Part shown: piece by piece, positions 38,568-47,306 of the stretch | Numbering within the stretch: the stretch's first letter is position 1 | How the letters are laid out: every line of letters begins with the position of its first letter | Assembly (NCBI RefSeq): GCF_002246015.1 | Contig: NZ_NOLJ01000001.1 | Coordinates: 783,749-847,748, forward strand | Source: Nostoc sp. 'Peltigera membranacea cyanobiont' 210A | GTDB taxonomy: Bacteria; Cyanobacteriota; Cyanobacteriia; Cyanobacteriales; Nostocaceae | Reading direction: 5' to 3' | DNA: 64,000 nucleotides | Translations under genes and position numbers: made by a program | Notes under the pieces: generated by a model | The model's database searches: none | What the model was told of the DNA's origin: nothing | The model's input: only the letters and a program-made list of their open reading frames with translations

Positions 38568-39003
38568 ATGCCCAAATTAGACATTATCCATAATGCGGTA
38601 AAAAACGCACTTATCAAGGACGGCTGGGCGATTACAGACGACCCCTACGTAATTCAGTATCGAAGAACAACCTTATACGCTGATCTCGGTGCTGAACGCC
38701 CAATTGGGGCTGAACGAGATGGGCAGAAACTTGTTGTTGAGGTGAAAAGCTTTGTTGGTGCATCAAAGATACAAGATTTGAAAGAAGCTCTCGGTCAGTA
38801 TGACATCTACCGTTATCTTTTAGAGGAAACAGCACCAGAGCGTAAACTTTACCTTGCTGTTGGTGCGTAGCTTGCCGCCGTAGGCATCGCTTAATAATTG
38901 CTTTTTCAACCAGGATGTGATTCAACTCATCCTCCACAAACATCAACTTCCACTCATTGTTGTCGATACAGAAATAGAGGAAATCACACAATGGATAAAT
39001 TAA
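38568..39003 (+). pseudogene. xisH: xisH, PD-(D/E)XK-like excision control factor, interrupted by a repeat
   Basis: The first 100 codons (MPKLDIIHNAVKNALIKDGW, RPIGAERDGQKLVVEVKSF) are normal XisH, with the Glu-x-Lys pair of the nuclease-like core. The rest of the family sequence (FFNQDVIQLILHKHQLPLIV, then EIEEITQWIN) is present in the +1 frame from about 38899 to the TAA at 39001-39003. Between the parts sits GCGTAGCTTGCCGCCGTAGG at 38865-38884 plus CATCGCT, a member of the dispersed repeat family. Net insertion length is 1 modulo 3, and it also adds an immediate stop. The true 3' end overlaps xisI, as usual. Confidence 0.85.
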
Positions 39004-39335
39004 CGGAGTATCCCAAAATAATCAAACGTATCCTGACAGAGTATGTTGAACTATGTAACCGTCGTCCTAACAAAGACATCGAAACATTTTTGATTATGGA
39101 TGAGCCAAAGGGCCACTATATTTGGATGAACCTTGGTTGGCAAAATGGCGAACGCATTACTGGTATGACTGTCTACATTCGGATTCGAGATTGCAAATTT
39201 TGGATTGAGGAAGATTGGACTGAAAATGGGATCGCAACTGACTTAGTTAGTGCAGGTGTTGCCAAGGAAGATATAATTTTGGCATTCCATGAGCCTAAGA
39301 TGAGGCAGTACACAGATTTTGCAGTAGCATCCTAG
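38991..39335 (+). CDS. xisI: XisI, fdxN element excision controlling factor
   Basis: Start at ATG 38991 (MDKLTEYPKIIKRILTEYVE); the frame is open upstream but only over xisH sequence. 114 residues, the normal XisI length, with ETFLIMDEPKGHYIWMNLGW and VSAGVAKEDIILAFHEPKMR, the family hallmarks. XisH and XisI were first found as factors needed for excision of the fdxN element in Anabaena heterocysts, but many copies exist in cyanobacteria without an element. It overlaps the old xisH stop by 13 bases and appears intact although its partner is broken. Confidence 0.92.
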   Translation: MDKLTEYPKIIKRILTEYVELCNRRPNKDIETFLIMDEPKGHYIWMNLGWQNGERITGMTVYIRIRDCKFWIEEDWTENGIATDLVSAGVAKEDIILAFHEPKMRQYTDFAVAS

Positions 39336-41999: not shown

Positions 42000-42118
42000 T
42001 TACAGGGATAATGGGGAAATACATACGTAGCCTGTTAATTTTGAATATGGCTAGCTCTCAAAATTGGTTACTTTATCAGCAAAAGTACTAACTTTATGAT
42101 AATTTTTTAGCTTTTTTA

Positions 42119-42134
42119 AGTGATTTATATCACT
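42119..42134. promoter_or_regulatory. Candidate operator or parS-like palindrome AGTGA-N6-TCACT
   Basis: AGTGATTTATATCACT, 83 bases upstream of the ParA-fusion start, is the only obvious palindrome in that intergenic space. Centromere-like sites of ParAB systems and operators of ParA-type autoregulators often have this form. Function is inference from position. Confidence 0.3.
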
Positions 42135-42216
42135 CAACCTAATTAAAGCTATGCCATAATCTAGCAAATATCAGGTTTTGTCCCAAGTCCAATAATTATT
42201 TAGAGGTAGAAAAATA

Positions 42217-43596
42217 TTGCCTTTTAATCCTGAGATGTGCCGTAACGAAAGCGAAGTTGAAAGCAAACTCATAGTGCAATATTTGCTACCACAGCTAGGT
42301 TATACTCCTGACACCTGGCATCAAGAGGTTGCCATTGGTAGCATCCGCTTAGATTTTTTGGCATTTGCTGCCCAAGTAATTCCCTTTGTCTTAGATGCCA
42401 ACTCACCGCTAAGTGTTGTCATGGAGGCAAAGCATCCCAAACAAAACTTAAATCATCATGTCCCTCGACTCAGGCATTATTTAACCAGCTTGAATGTCAG
42501 GTATGGATTGCTGACTAATGGCAAAGAAATCAGAATTTATCAAAAATTTCAATACGATATTCAATTAGTATTTCAATGTTCTGGGAAGGAAGTTGAGATA
42601 AAGTTAGATGAAATTAAAACTTTAATTGGTAGAGAGAGCCTTAAAGAAGGACAGCTAGTAGATAAGTCAGAAGTTCAAATACCTGGAAATAATTTAAATT
42701 TTGAAATAAAGAGGCAACATTTAATGAAAACGATTGCAATCTACCACAATAAAGGCGGCGTTGGAAAGACTACTGTTGCAGTCAATCTTGCAGCAGCATT
42801 ACGTAAAAAAGGTAAAAATGTACTTTTAGTTGATATAGATTCCCAGGCAAATACTACTTTTGCTACAGGATTAATAAAATTTCAATTTGAAGAAGATGAT
42901 AATTTAAGAGAGTTAAACGTATATCATTTATTAGAATCAGGAGATTTTAACTTTATTCCAGAAGTAGTGCGTACATCGGATTATTTCAACAATCCAGAAA
43001 TTGATGTTATTCCTTCACATATTACATTAATTGAATATCAGGATAAACTAAATAAAATATTAGCTAGTAGGAGCAGGCTAGTAACAAAACTAAAAAGGGT
43101 AGAAAATAATTATGATATTGTAATTATTGATACTCCCCCCTCTAGAGATTTGTATGCTGAAGTTGCACTGATTGCTAGTGATTACCTGATAATTCCATCC
43201 GACTTGAAACCATTTGCTAACCAAGGTTTACCAACGGTCAAAAATTTTGTTAATCAAATTAATGAATCTAGAGAAATGATGGGTAAACCGCCTATTAGTA
43301 TAATGGGCGTCCTTGCTTCTAAAATCTCAACAAATGCTAAATTTTTACAATACAATTTCCCTAAACAGAGAGAAGTAATTTCAGAGCGTTATCAACTGCC
43401 ACTGATGGAAGCTGTAATTTATGACAGAACAGCGTTATCAGAATGTATGAATCAGACTATCCCAGTTGGAGATTTAGAATATCCTGACCCTAAATCTATT
43501 ATAAAATTTGCCGAGTTAAAAACTTCTGCTCAAATTTCTGCTGAAGAATTTAATGTATTAGCAGATGAAGTTATCAAAAAAATGGGAGTTTATTAA
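42217..43596 (+). CDS. Fusion of HsdR_N-type PD-(D/E)XK domain to a ParA-family ATPase
   Basis: 459 residues, TTG start at 42217 with AGAGGT about 11 bases upstream. Residues 8-145 form a type I restriction HsdR N-terminal-like domain: NESEVESKLIVQYLLPQLGY, RLDF with Asp46, and VVMEAK with Glu70 and Lys72, the putative nuclease triad. Residues 170-455 are a complete ParA ATPase: deviant Walker A KGGVGKTT with signature Lys179 and Lys184, LLVDIDSQANTT (A' motif), and YDIVIIDTPPSRD (Walker B). An internal ATG at 42724 precedes the ATPase. It overlaps the next gene by one base. Confidence 0.85.
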   Translation: MPFNPEMCRNESEVESKLIVQYLLPQLGYTPDTWHQEVAIGSIRLDFLAFAAQVIPFVLDANSPLSVVMEAKHPKQNLNHHVPRLRHYLTSLNVRYGLLTNGKEIRIYQKFQYDIQLVFQCSGKEVEIKLDEIKTLIGRESLKEGQLVDKSEVQIPGNNLNFEIKRQHLMKTIAIYHNKGGVGKTTVAVNLAAALRKKGKNVLLVDIDSQANTTFATGLIKFQFEEDDNLRELNVYHLLESGDFNFIPEVVRTSDYFNNPEIDVIPSHITLIEYQDKLNKILASRSRLVTKLKRVENNYDIVIIDTPPSRDLYAEVALIASDYLIIPSDLKPFANQGLPTVKNFVNQINESREMMGKPPISIMGVLASKISTNAKFLQYNFPKQREVISERYQLPLMEAVIYDRTALSECMNQTIPVGDLEYPDPKSIIKFAELKTSAQISAEEFNVLADEVIKKMGVY

Positions 43597-44312
43597 TGAT
43601 TAATTTTTCTTTAGTGGATGTCAAAAGTATTGCTTCTAATGAACCTCGTTCAAATTTTGCAGAAGCTGATTTAGAAAACCTTGCAGATATAATTATAGAA
43701 ACTGGAGGAATTATCAGACCATTAGTTGTGAAAGTGACAGGAGTGGAGAGCTATACAGTAGTTGATGGACATTTTGAATATTATGCTGCTGTCAGAGCAA
43801 GAGAAAAAAATCCTCGACAAGGTGAGATGGTTAATGCTTTTGTCATTGCTCCTAAATTAGAGGATTTAGTAGTAAAACAAGTTGCATCTCTCAAAGGCAT
43901 TGATTCTTCTACCAAACCAGTAACACCACAGCCTGAAACAACAAAATTAGAACCACGTCTGGCAAATTTAGAATTACGTCTTGAGAAACAATTTAATGAG
44001 TTTAAGTCAGAATTTATACAAGAAAGACAGAGAATAGATAGTCAGTTCAAGCAGCTTGAAAACCTTATTCCTCAAAAGAGCGAACAGAGTAATCCACTTA
44101 GTTTATTGAACTCTTTGGATAAAGACGAGTTATCTATAAAGTTACAACGCTCTAGGATTCCTGGGGCTGAAAAACTTGCAAAGGGTATATTTGATGCTCG
44201 AACTAAGAAACCGAAGCAAAAGTTTGAAGATTACCGCGATGTAGTAAAGTCTGTTAAAAACTTGGGTGATAAAACAATTTTGACTATTATTGATGAGTGG
44301 TCAAGAAGTTAG
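43596..44312 (+). CDS. ParB-like protein, partner of the HsdR_N-ParA fusion
   Basis: 238 residues. The N-terminal 95 resemble the ParB/Noc CTPase fold: EPRSNFAEADLENLADIIIE, GGIIRPLVVK, VVDGHFEYYAAVRAREKNPR (the GERR position reads GHFE). There is no HTH domain where ParB normally has one. Residues about 118-165 are a coiled coil (LANLELRLEKQFNEFKSEF). The C-terminus (IPGAEKLAKGIFDAR, NLGDKTILTIIDEW) looks like a small helical domain. Start ATG overlaps the ParA stop (TAATG), so translation is coupled. It should be the regulator or DNA anchor of the ATPase. Confidence 0.8.
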   Translation: MINFSLVDVKSIASNEPRSNFAEADLENLADIIIETGGIIRPLVVKVTGVESYTVVDGHFEYYAAVRAREKNPRQGEMVNAFVIAPKLEDLVVKQVASLKGIDSSTKPVTPQPETTKLEPRLANLELRLEKQFNEFKSEFIQERQRIDSQFKQLENLIPQKSEQSNPLSLLNSLDKDELSIKLQRSRIPGAEKLAKGIFDARTKKPKQKFEDYRDVVKSVKNLGDKTILTIIDEWSRS

Positions 44313-44399
44313 TAGTTATTTAAATAAGTTATTCGCGATGTAAAAGCTTGCATAGCTCTTCTCTGCGTTTTTGTGTGAGCCATGAGACACCAAAAAAAT

Positions 44400-44478
44400 C
44401 GTAGGTTGGGTTGAACGGAGTGAAACCCAACAATTAACGCCTAATGTTGGGTTTCGTTCCTCAACCCAACCTACACAG
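44400..44478. repeat. Palindromic repeat GTAGGTTGGGTTGA...TCAACCCAACCTAC
   Basis: Arms of about 30 bases (GTAGGTTGGGTTGAACGGAG and its inverted counterpart CGTTCCTCAACCCAACCTAC) around a short loop. A fragment of the same family lies at 33674-33705. It is intergenic, between the ParB-like gene and a glycosyltransferase. Confidence 0.65.
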
Positions 44479-44523
44479 CTTTTCCAAATAACGTCAAAAG
44501 TAAGTTGCACAATATGTTAATCT

Positions 44524-45536: not shown

Positions 45537-46565
45537 CTAAGTGTAAGAGATAGTTTGATTAATTTTATTCAAAAGTTTTTTGATAAATCGATTGCTTCTA
45601 GCCGCTATGGTAGGTGGCTTTAATCGCTTCGGTTTTTGCTCTGGTTGCTTCAGAAAGCGATAGTGCAAAAATTCATTTTTGTAACGGATATCAACATCTT
45701 CACCTTTACACAAGCGGGTAAATCCAATAGCAGAATAGCCCATATAGTGAAGGCGATGAATTGGTTTTAATCCCTGTTGGTTGTAAAGAACATTATCAAT
45801 GTTCACAAATGGATTTGCATTAGCACAGTTGCCAGTTCTATCTTCACCATTGGGACTGAGTGTAAAGTTAAATAGTGGTCGAGCAATTCTAAAAGTCATG
45901 TAACTAAATAAATCTGCGTCACACCACCAAGCGATTTCGTTAATCAATTCGACTTCTTTATCTTCTATCAATCGCTTTTTGAGTATTTTTAATTCTTCAA
46001 CGCCTAAAATACCCTTTTTTGAACCAAAAAAACTAGAACAGTGAATTTCTCGTCTGATTTCAGATTCAGGCAAAGACATTTTTTGTTCTAACTTCGGCAA
46101 GTCGAAAGCTGCAACTGAAGTTTGTTTGGTGTGTTCCCAGTCATCAAACACAAAGTCGTATTGGTCTAGTTTTTCTAAAACCTTGTCCAGCTTATTCATT
46201 GCCAAACTATCAGCATCATAAAATACAAATCTTTCAAACTCACCATCAAAAGCACACATTTTTCGGATTAAATTATTTTTTTTATTCCATTCGATAGAAG
46301 GTTTATTTTTTCGGCTATTTCTTGGATAAGCGTTCCAAACTTGAACGGCAAAATCCTCCCATTTTTTAATCGAGCTTTTATCGTCAAACAGGGTGACATT
46401 CGGTCGAGAACGTATCTCCTGCTTAACTCGTTTTAAGCGGTCATCATAGGGAATAATACAAATCGGAATATCTGGACTAACATTCACCTCAATGCTATTT
46501 AGCAAAGCTACTAGTTGGTCAAATACCACGTCATTAGCAAGTGTGTAAATTCCAAAATTATCCAT
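45537..46565 (-). CDS. Glycosyltransferase-like protein (GT-A/GT8-like)
   Basis: Start chosen at ATG 46565 (MDNFGIYTLANDVVFDQLVA); the frame is open to 46631, but those codons lie in the end of a repeat element. About 342 residues. FVFYDADSLAMNKLDKVLEK has a DxD metal motif in GT8-like context, and DFVFDDWEHTK and WWCDADLFSYM add acidic sites. Its tail is basic. I recognise it as a type common in Nostoc without an assigned function. Likely acts with the neighbouring GT2. Confidence 0.7.
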   Translation of the reverse strand: MDNFGIYTLANDVVFDQLVALLNSIEVNVSPDIPICIIPYDDRLKRVKQEIRSRPNVTLFDDKSSIKKWEDFAVQVWNAYPRNSRKNKPSIEWNKKNNLIRKMCAFDGEFERFVFYDADSLAMNKLDKVLEKLDQYDFVFDDWEHTKQTSVAAFDLPKLEQKMSLPESEIRREIHCSSFFGSKKGILGVEELKILKKRLIEDKEVELINEIAWWCDADLFSYMTFRIARPLFNFTLSPNGEDRTGNCANANPFVNIDNVLYNQQGLKPIHRLHYMGYSAIGFTRLCKGEDVDIRYKNEFLHYRFLKQPEQKPKRLKPPTIAARSNRFIKKLLNKINQTISYT

Positions 46566-46604
46566 TGTAATAAATTCTTGTGATCTTTGATTTACTGAGT
46601 AATG

Positions 46605-46699
46605 CCAATTCTCTGTGAAGCTGAACATCATTTAGACCCCTCCCAACCTTACCGAACTAGGTAGTGGGGTTATTTCTACACATCTTTATACAGAATTGG
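46605..46699. mobile_element. 95-bp element with CCAATTCT...AGAATTGG ends
   Basis: CCAATTCTCTGTGAAG at 46605-46620 and CTTTATACAGAATTGG at 46684-46699 are inverted at 13 of 16 positions. Interior is CCCTCCCAACC-type sequence. A related 115-bp copy lies at 62277-62391, upstream of another gene. Confidence 0.6.
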
Positions 46700-46856: not shown

Positions 46857-47306
46857 CTAGCTGTTAAACAATTGCCTCCTAGAGAATAATCTCAGCAACC
46901 CGGCGGTTCCCACACCCCAAGCGCCATTAACCAATAAACCTGTCACTATTCCCACAAGTTTCCAGCCGCCAGCGATGGGTTGACCCTTGAGCGGTGCAAC
47001 CACAAACCAAGCCACTAGCGTCGGAGCAATTGCACCAAAGACTAAAGCTCCTAACCAATAGTTTTTATCATGTCGAAAACGAGGTGCAATTCCTACCAAA
47101 ATTAGTCCCCAAATGCCTCCCCAGAAAGCATTTGACCAAATTTGTGGAATTCCTAATGGTGGTGTTGGTGCAGTTGAATAAGGGGCGCGAGGTGTAAAAT
47201 TTACTGCATGTAGCAGAGCCAATACACCTTGATGAAATAGCAAAACAGACACAAAGCCTGCAATAAATCCGAAAGCAAATCGAGATAAGGCAGCTTTTTG
47301 AGTCAT
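46857..47306 (-). CDS. Small membrane protein, four helices
   Basis: 149 residues. Four hydrophobic helices (FAFGFIAGFVSVLLFHQGVL, FWGGIWGLILVGIA, YWLGALVFGAIAPTLVAWFV, LVGIVTGLLVNGAWGVGTAG) with a proline-rich loop PRAPYSTAPTPPLGIPQ. It is conserved as a type in bacteria and cyanobacteria without a named function. It stands alone. Confidence 0.65.
   Translation of the reverse strand: MTQKAALSRFAFGFIAGFVSVLLFHQGVLALLHAVNFTPRAPYSTAPTPPLGIPQIWSNAFWGGIWGLILVGIAPRFRHDKNYWLGALVFGAIAPTLVAWFVVAPLKGQPIAGGWKLVGIVTGLLVNGAWGVGTAGLLRLFSRRQLFNS

Follow-up and report, generated by a model that had tools for sequence, protein, structure and literature searches.

What task might fall to a ParA-type ATPase that carries a nuclease domain and is encoded directly beside a ParB-like partner? 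A gene pair of this kind lies in Nostoc sp. 'Peltigera membranacea cyanobiont' 210A (GCF_002246015.1), in a stretch of 64,000 nucleotides (NZ_NOLJ01000001.1, positions 783,749-847,748, forward strand) that is called the window here; coordinates below are positions in the window. Gene A (42217..43596, + strand, TTG start) encodes 459 residues in which an HSDR_N-like domain of the PD-(D/E)XK type precedes a ParA ATPase, and gene B (43596..44312, +, ATG start) encodes a ParB-like protein of 238 residues; the two overlap by one base (junction TAATG). A first-pass annotation had described this fusion and its overlapping ParB-like partner, and open reading frames, Pfam matches, structure models and, for gene A, relatives in other genomes bear the description out. 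The pair is real and more than a product of chance, because it recurs in scores of genomes and its genes lie on one strand in each of the 147 loci with both genes (some species being represented twice), with an overlap or a gap of at most 10 nt in 140 of them. Since a start codon conserved inside gene A is accompanied by an excess of Shine-Dalgarno-like (SD-like) sequence over a synonymous control, gene A very probably makes two proteins, the long fusion and a short, nuclease-free ParA. This is the firmest new statement of our analysis.

Two predicted products of gene A

The ParA part of the fusion begins at Met170 (ATG at 42724), and AAAGAGG (42708-42714, +) stands before this codon. The GAGG within it (42711..42714) is an SD-like core 9 nt 5' of the internal ATG; the TTG of gene A has a GAGG of its own 10 nt upstream (42203..42206, +). 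We examined 87 distinct fused genes, that is, genes in which the NKGGVGK motif stands in one frame with the N-domain, identical sequences having been removed here and wherever we write distinct. At the first ParA residue all 87 have a start codon (84 ATG, 2 GTG and 1 TTG), and about half (48/87) have a ribosome-binding-like SD core in the preceding 18 nt. When codons for the same peptides were redrawn from each gene's own usage, 500 redraws gave a mean of 11.4 and a maximum of 20 such genes, and none reached the observed number. Most of the cores begin 10-14 nt upstream of the internal start, and the pairing energy with the anti-SD sequence is -4.1 kcal/mol there versus -1.5 kcal/mol in the control (60 draws). 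Seventy different pentapeptides precede the internal start, and with one gene kept per version the core is still found in 34 of 70; before other internal Met codons it occurs in 38 of 684 cases. A separate count under another duplicate-removal rule gave 88 fused genes, 49 with the core. In a divergent second family of such pairs, family II (described below; the window copy belongs to family I), the corresponding codon is ATG in 15/15 genes and the core is present in 12/15, against a mean of 5.65 and a maximum of 11 in 500 draws. Stand-alone ParA genes have it in 9 of 17 cases, and a similar AAGAGG precedes the ParA start at four loci that have lost the N-domain (L095-L098). The synonymous control also argues against Met170 being a mere relic of the fusion event. 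The predicted short form would comprise residues 170-459 (42724..43596, +), a ParA with conserved ATPase residues and a Soj-like fold.

The domain that the short form would lack spans residues 1-145 (42217..42651, +). Its Pfam matches, within the first 111 residues, are borderline: HSDR_N (E 1.6e-5) just passes its cut-off of 25.1 bits with 25.3, and HSDR_N_2 (E 5.2e-5), with 23.7 bits, stays below its cut-off of 25. At E≤0.1 HSDR_N_2 is matched by 39 of 45 aligned members, several of the 45 being without the domain, with a best E of 1.3e-9. The modelled domain has the alpha-beta-beta-beta-alpha-beta order of the PD-(D/E)XK fold and places Asp46 (codon 42352-42354, +) on strand 2 and Glu70 (42424-42426) and Lys72 (42430-42432) at strand 3. 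Loss of this triad in most homologues had been set beforehand as a check on the first-pass annotation. Among 118 distinct N-domains of at least 100 residues, each of the three positions is conserved in 116, which leads us to reject an inactive nuclease; the exceptions, L043 and L048, differ at all three positions, and the N-domain match of L048 is doubtful. The triad is complete in all 74 distinct N-domains from 100 loci fetched in the genome draws described below. A profile of the N-domain gave only chance-like matches among PDB sequences, and a structural look-up of gene A returned only ParA chains of Soj-like fold, a result that excludes no family for the N-domain. The ParA part is matched by AAA_31 (residues 170-351, E 8e-54), and its deviant Walker A motif, with signature Lys179, Gly180 to Thr186 and within these Lys184 (codon 42766-42768, +), is invariant in 45 sequences.

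Two known systems resemble this arrangement, and each lends itself to a different explanation of the pair. The extension of IncC1, encoded by plasmid RK2, is not known to be a nuclease, and the RK2 partner KorB has a helix-turn-helix (HTH), both unlike the pair studied here. As predicted for gene A, the long IncC1 and the short IncC2 come from one ParA gene with two starts; they serve plasmid partition, unlike our pair (PMC2666795, in part). This precedent, the full ParA active site with its Soj-like fold, the ParB_N-fold partner and the persistence of pairs without the nuclease domain would all suit a ParA-type system that positions or segregates a chromosomal locus or some other cargo, in which the HSDR_N fold would not cut and would act, like the N-terminal extension of IncC1, in DNA binding or regulation. 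A mere scaffold would have no need of a triad so strictly kept, and, with the further evidence on distribution and exchange given below, we consider this explanation rather unlikely.

RpnL/RpnS is not known to have a ParA ATPase or a ParB-like partner. It shares with our pair a PD-(D/E)XK gene with an internal start, a nuclease-free C-terminal product and a variable part, which lies in the short form itself and not, as here, in a second gene; the nuclease RpnL is blocked by RpnS, the internal-start product of the same gene (PMC10327210, in part). By this precedent and the sequence signal at the internal start, the pair could be a gene-within-gene toxin-antitoxin or addiction cassette, in which DNA damage by the long form is countered by the short ParA as intragenic antitoxin and persistence is selfish; its presence at several sites, where a rival family can take its place, would fit. 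A two-product system would not need gene B, which is kept in 49 of the first 52 loci (two of the three misses are at a contig end), and two copies with decayed nucleases (L091 and L098) keep both ParA and B. We regard this explanation as unlikely.

Exchange within gene B and at the insertion sites

The ParB of ParABS systems is defined by a CTPase GERR box and an HTH. The protein of gene B has a ParB_N match over the Pfam cut-off (1.4e-7), and its residues 1-100 (43596..43895, +) make up a ParB_N/Srx-fold domain without a canonical GERR box: after Gly58 the residues are mostly His or Asp, then Phe or Leu, then Glu, with Arg at position 60 in 6 of 133 sequences and not among the residues listed at 61. 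No HTH family is among the Pfam matches shown for B or its relatives. In this respect the first-pass description of B as lacking an HTH stands, and it was incomplete, because B ends in a helical module of another kind. According to the model, a long helix, possibly a coiled coil, covers residues 119-157 (43950..44066, +) and leads to a C-terminal module (residues 160-238; 44073..44309, +). This module is helix-hairpin-helix-like (HhH-like) in the window copy, as judged from weak matches, clustering and the swaps described below, and of the SAP/Rho_N type in some relatives. BLAST clustering of the last 75-90 residues placed 121 of 140 loci in the HhH-like kind, 11 in SAP/Rho_N and 8 in a third kind; four family I loci (L030, L050, L084 and L094) joined no cluster and are outside the 140. 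The third kind has no Pfam name; the best Rho_N match, for the SAP/Rho_N kind, has E 2.2e-12, and the HhH matches of the HhH-like kind are weak.

The module is exchanged between closely related pairs. L038 and L020 are 95.9% identical in ParA and 92.9% in the ParB_N part of B and 28.6% identical in the C-terminal part; for L132 and L133, which have a SAP and a third-kind module, the values are 90.8%, 86.0% and 27.3%. DNA identity drops sharply inside gene B in both comparisons. The flanks of L132 and L133 are homologous on both sides and identity returns downstream, whereas the downstream flank of L038 and L020 is not homologous. Module kind changes at least nine times on the ParA tree, a quick tree in which 46 of 129 inner branches are open and one row (L103) is aberrant. 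At 85-90% ParA identity (71 pairs, which are not independent of one another) the C-terminal parts have a median identity of 55% and the ParB_N parts one of 78%. The third kind is common to both families: the B proteins of L022 and L165 are 55% identical over 147 C-terminal residues, and their N-terminal parts give no significant match. A SAP kind module is found in the B proteins of two family II loci (L166 and L168). The C-terminal module is likely to be the DNA-recognition end of B. Its exchange recalls the swapping of recognition modules in HsdS.

Whole pairs also come and go. The pair occupies several chromosomal sites, and the zinc-ribbon gene that flanks it is present in each of seven same-genus genomes without the pair. 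Two of these have an empty site: L163 has 108 bp in place of 42049..44518, which we take as the extent of the cassette, and in L164 81 bp replace 42004-44522. In two others the fetched stretch did not include the right flank. In the remaining three the site holds family II in the same orientation, a two-gene set whose first protein is again an HSDR_N-ParA fusion, about 30% identical to that of family I; the second gene encodes a divergent ParB_N-like protein with a weak Pfam match (E 0.023 and 2.4e-4 in the two scanned). Family II keeps the Asp and the E-x-K in 15/15 sequences and was found in 15 of the 192 genomes from the host's family and 16 of the 386 from its phylum. At 11 of its 15 loci in the host's family, the flanking sequence on each side, within 1.5 kb, corresponds to that of a family I pair in a relative. 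The two families occur together in 1 of the 192 genomes, where 7.3 would be expected (E≤1e-60; kinship not corrected). Both families meet at L066: a family I ParA there is in frame with the AAA_12 part of an SF1 helicase that is broken, and immediately upstream lies a family II pair, itself broken; we rejected this extra part, the C-terminal half of the helicase, as a domain replacing HSDR_N, the fusion being probably due to chance.

At hsd restriction loci, divergent families are likewise replaced at one site and recognition ends are swapped. The family replacement and module swapping seen here thus resemble restriction loci and are not expected of housekeeping segregation. The internal start, the swappable module, the presence of family II at sites of family I and the two sites found empty, none of which appeared in the first-pass annotation, are the strongest evidence on function.

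Distribution and possible function

When one genome per species was scanned with 8-residue patterns, which bias the sample, 52 relatives were found, mostly in cyanobacteria. The others are from Desulfobacter, Electrothrix, Riflebacteria, Thiotrichaceae, Bacteroidales, Synergistaceae and Chloroflexaceae, most of them metagenomic. Two overlapping genome draws, free of that bias, gave matches at E≤1e-60 in 94 of 192 genomes of the host's family (among those of high quality, 92 of 185) and in 55 of 386 genomes of its phylum, nuclease-free and broken copies counted; the loci of scan and draws hold some species twice. Among 100 loci fetched from the draws, 79 have both domains in one frame followed by B (one of these, L100, is broken further on), 12 have ParA without the N-domain plus B and one the same without B, six have N-domain and ParA in separate frames plus B, and two have the N-domain only. 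Recurrence in so many genomes leads us to reject a single freak fusion or a start-codon artefact and supports the module of nuclease-ParA and ParB-like partner suggested earlier. At L090, the same copy as L022, a second, nuclease-free ParA of about 62% identity lies directly upstream of the fused one.

Four plasmid records and 67 phage records match gene A, none over 80% of its length, and the 20 phage matches shown cover the ParA part only; of 40 pattern matches in viral contigs none was confirmed. A phage-borne origin was rejected on these grounds. The distance to dnaA in 15 genomes ranges from 3 to 48% of the replicon, with a median of 26% and no departure from uniformity (Kolmogorov-Smirnov P 0.78). 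Repeats near the window copy are short, chance-like or degenerate, with no obvious parS-type array in what is a weak test of this one copy. With no plasmid record over 80% and no linkage to the origin, a plasmid partition system was also rejected, and in these respects the pair does not look like the ordinary ParABS that the first-pass annotation had allowed for. It shares with ParABS (Soj/Spo0J and plasmid ParA/ParB) a ParA with deviant Walker A motif and a ParB_N-fold partner, and differs in the fused nuclease domain, in the lack of a GERR box or HTH match and in the HhH-like, SAP or third-kind module of the partner, besides its location. The absence of origin linkage, the patchy presence with two empty sites and the module swaps between near-identical pairs all speak against positioning or segregation. 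The ParA/ParB build, a swappable module resembling incompatibility changes and the exchange of two families at their sites could also point to a replicon-exclusion or mobile-element control device left from integrated elements, its ParA/ParB-like part directed at the partition site of a rival element. Plasmid and phage records all cover less than 80% of gene A, the 10 annotated neighbours include no integrase or transfer gene, and we think such a device very improbable.

The most likely single explanation, which we hold tentatively, is a chromosomal, horizontally exchanged cassette for DNA discrimination and interference with an intragenic modulator. Gene A would give the long form, nuclease plus ParA ATPase, and from its internal start ParA alone; gene B would give a ParB-fold protein whose helical stalk carries the exchangeable module that sets which DNA is recognised. 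B would settle on target DNA by this module. ParA dimers with ATP bind DNA without sequence preference, and at the target such dimers would meet B. Dimers of two long forms, in which a pair of HSDR_N domains comes together, would cut or nick the target, presumably foreign DNA, and dimers with one or two short forms would restrain the nuclease, the ratio of long to short form serving as a safety catch. It is conceivable, though we would not yet rely on it, that this is a new immune or plasmid-interference system: a nuclease-armed ParA steered by a ParB-fold adaptor with restriction-like module swaps, restrained by a nuclease-free ParA from the same gene and existing in two versions that compete for sites. 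ParA and ParB are the textbook example of proteins that move DNA and cargo; if this explanation is right, the same machinery tells DNAs apart, a dangerous nuclease is controlled simply by the long:short ratio and ATP-driven dimerisation, and a common, so far unnamed system is added to the biology of cyanobacteria, in which foreign DNA is hard to establish.

Several observations weigh against a simple cutting machine. Of the 128 ParA rows scored, after removal of four that were aberrant or at a contig edge, 18 have no N-domain, with at least nine changes on the ParA tree; ParA is retained in these, and the two with nuclease remnants upstream, L091 and L098, were mentioned above. The core is therefore able to live without the nuclease. 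The annotated flanking genes are mostly housekeeping genes (a tRNA synthetase with an IleRS zinc finger, glycosyltransferases, a carboxypeptidase and a desaturase). A PADLOC scan of 88 flanking proteins at loci outside the host's family, made with no control set, showed no defence gene that recurs; isolated matches were to models of kinase and helicase types. A defence role is thus not supported by the neighbourhood. In PADLOC-DB 2023 gene A matches PDC-M28B best (E 2.4e-9, residues 140-286, mainly the ATPase part) and gene B no model, and neither protein matches a specific anti-phage model. Family II also matches PDC-M28B best, with weak matches to Cas4 (E 0.0017) and mad2 (E 0.0066) over the N-domain.

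The HSDR_N domain with its D/ExK triad is common to gene A and type I HsdR. Unlike type I HsdR and type IV McrBC systems, the cassette has no helicase motor in gene A, where the ATPase is a ParA-type switch, and neither HsdM/HsdS, McrC nor an SF2 helicase was seen among the annotated neighbours. McrB of McrBC also has long and short forms. Positioning systems of the PadC and McdA types are not known to have a nuclease or a swappable DNA-binding module. Nuclease partners as such are known for the ParB-CTPase fold, which is fused to lineage-specific domains that include HNH nucleases; of the fusions surveyed, only ParB-DUF3850 is reported to have a parA homologue as a consistent neighbour (Kaljevic et al. 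2025; PMC12704722, in part). The main text of that paper mentions neither HsdR, nor a helix-hairpin, nor SAP as a domain. Searches of an open-access library for ParA with HsdR, nuclease or ParB-like partners listed no description of the pair.

Surroundings of the window copy

Among the flanking genes in the window are, presumably, purD-like and nblS-like ones. Between the purD-like and kinase genes lie XisH (38568-38870) and XisI (38898-39335), with Pfam E values of 5e-44 and 6e-41; XisH/XisI pairs are common in cyanobacteria. Two further open reading frames (45537-46631 and 46857-47306) have no Pfam match at E≤1. A ParA of 294 residues (L005:6603-7487 and homologues) often neighbours the insertion site. 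It was rejected as a component of the cassette, being a core gene present in 76 of the 80 genomes tested out of 84 without either family, and at none of the 20 of those 76 sites that were fetched does a pair lie within the 6.2 kb 5' of it. Downstream of gene B, at 44401-44474, a perfect 14-nt inverted repeat (GTAGGTTGGGTTGA) encloses a second, imperfect pair and may be a small repeat element.
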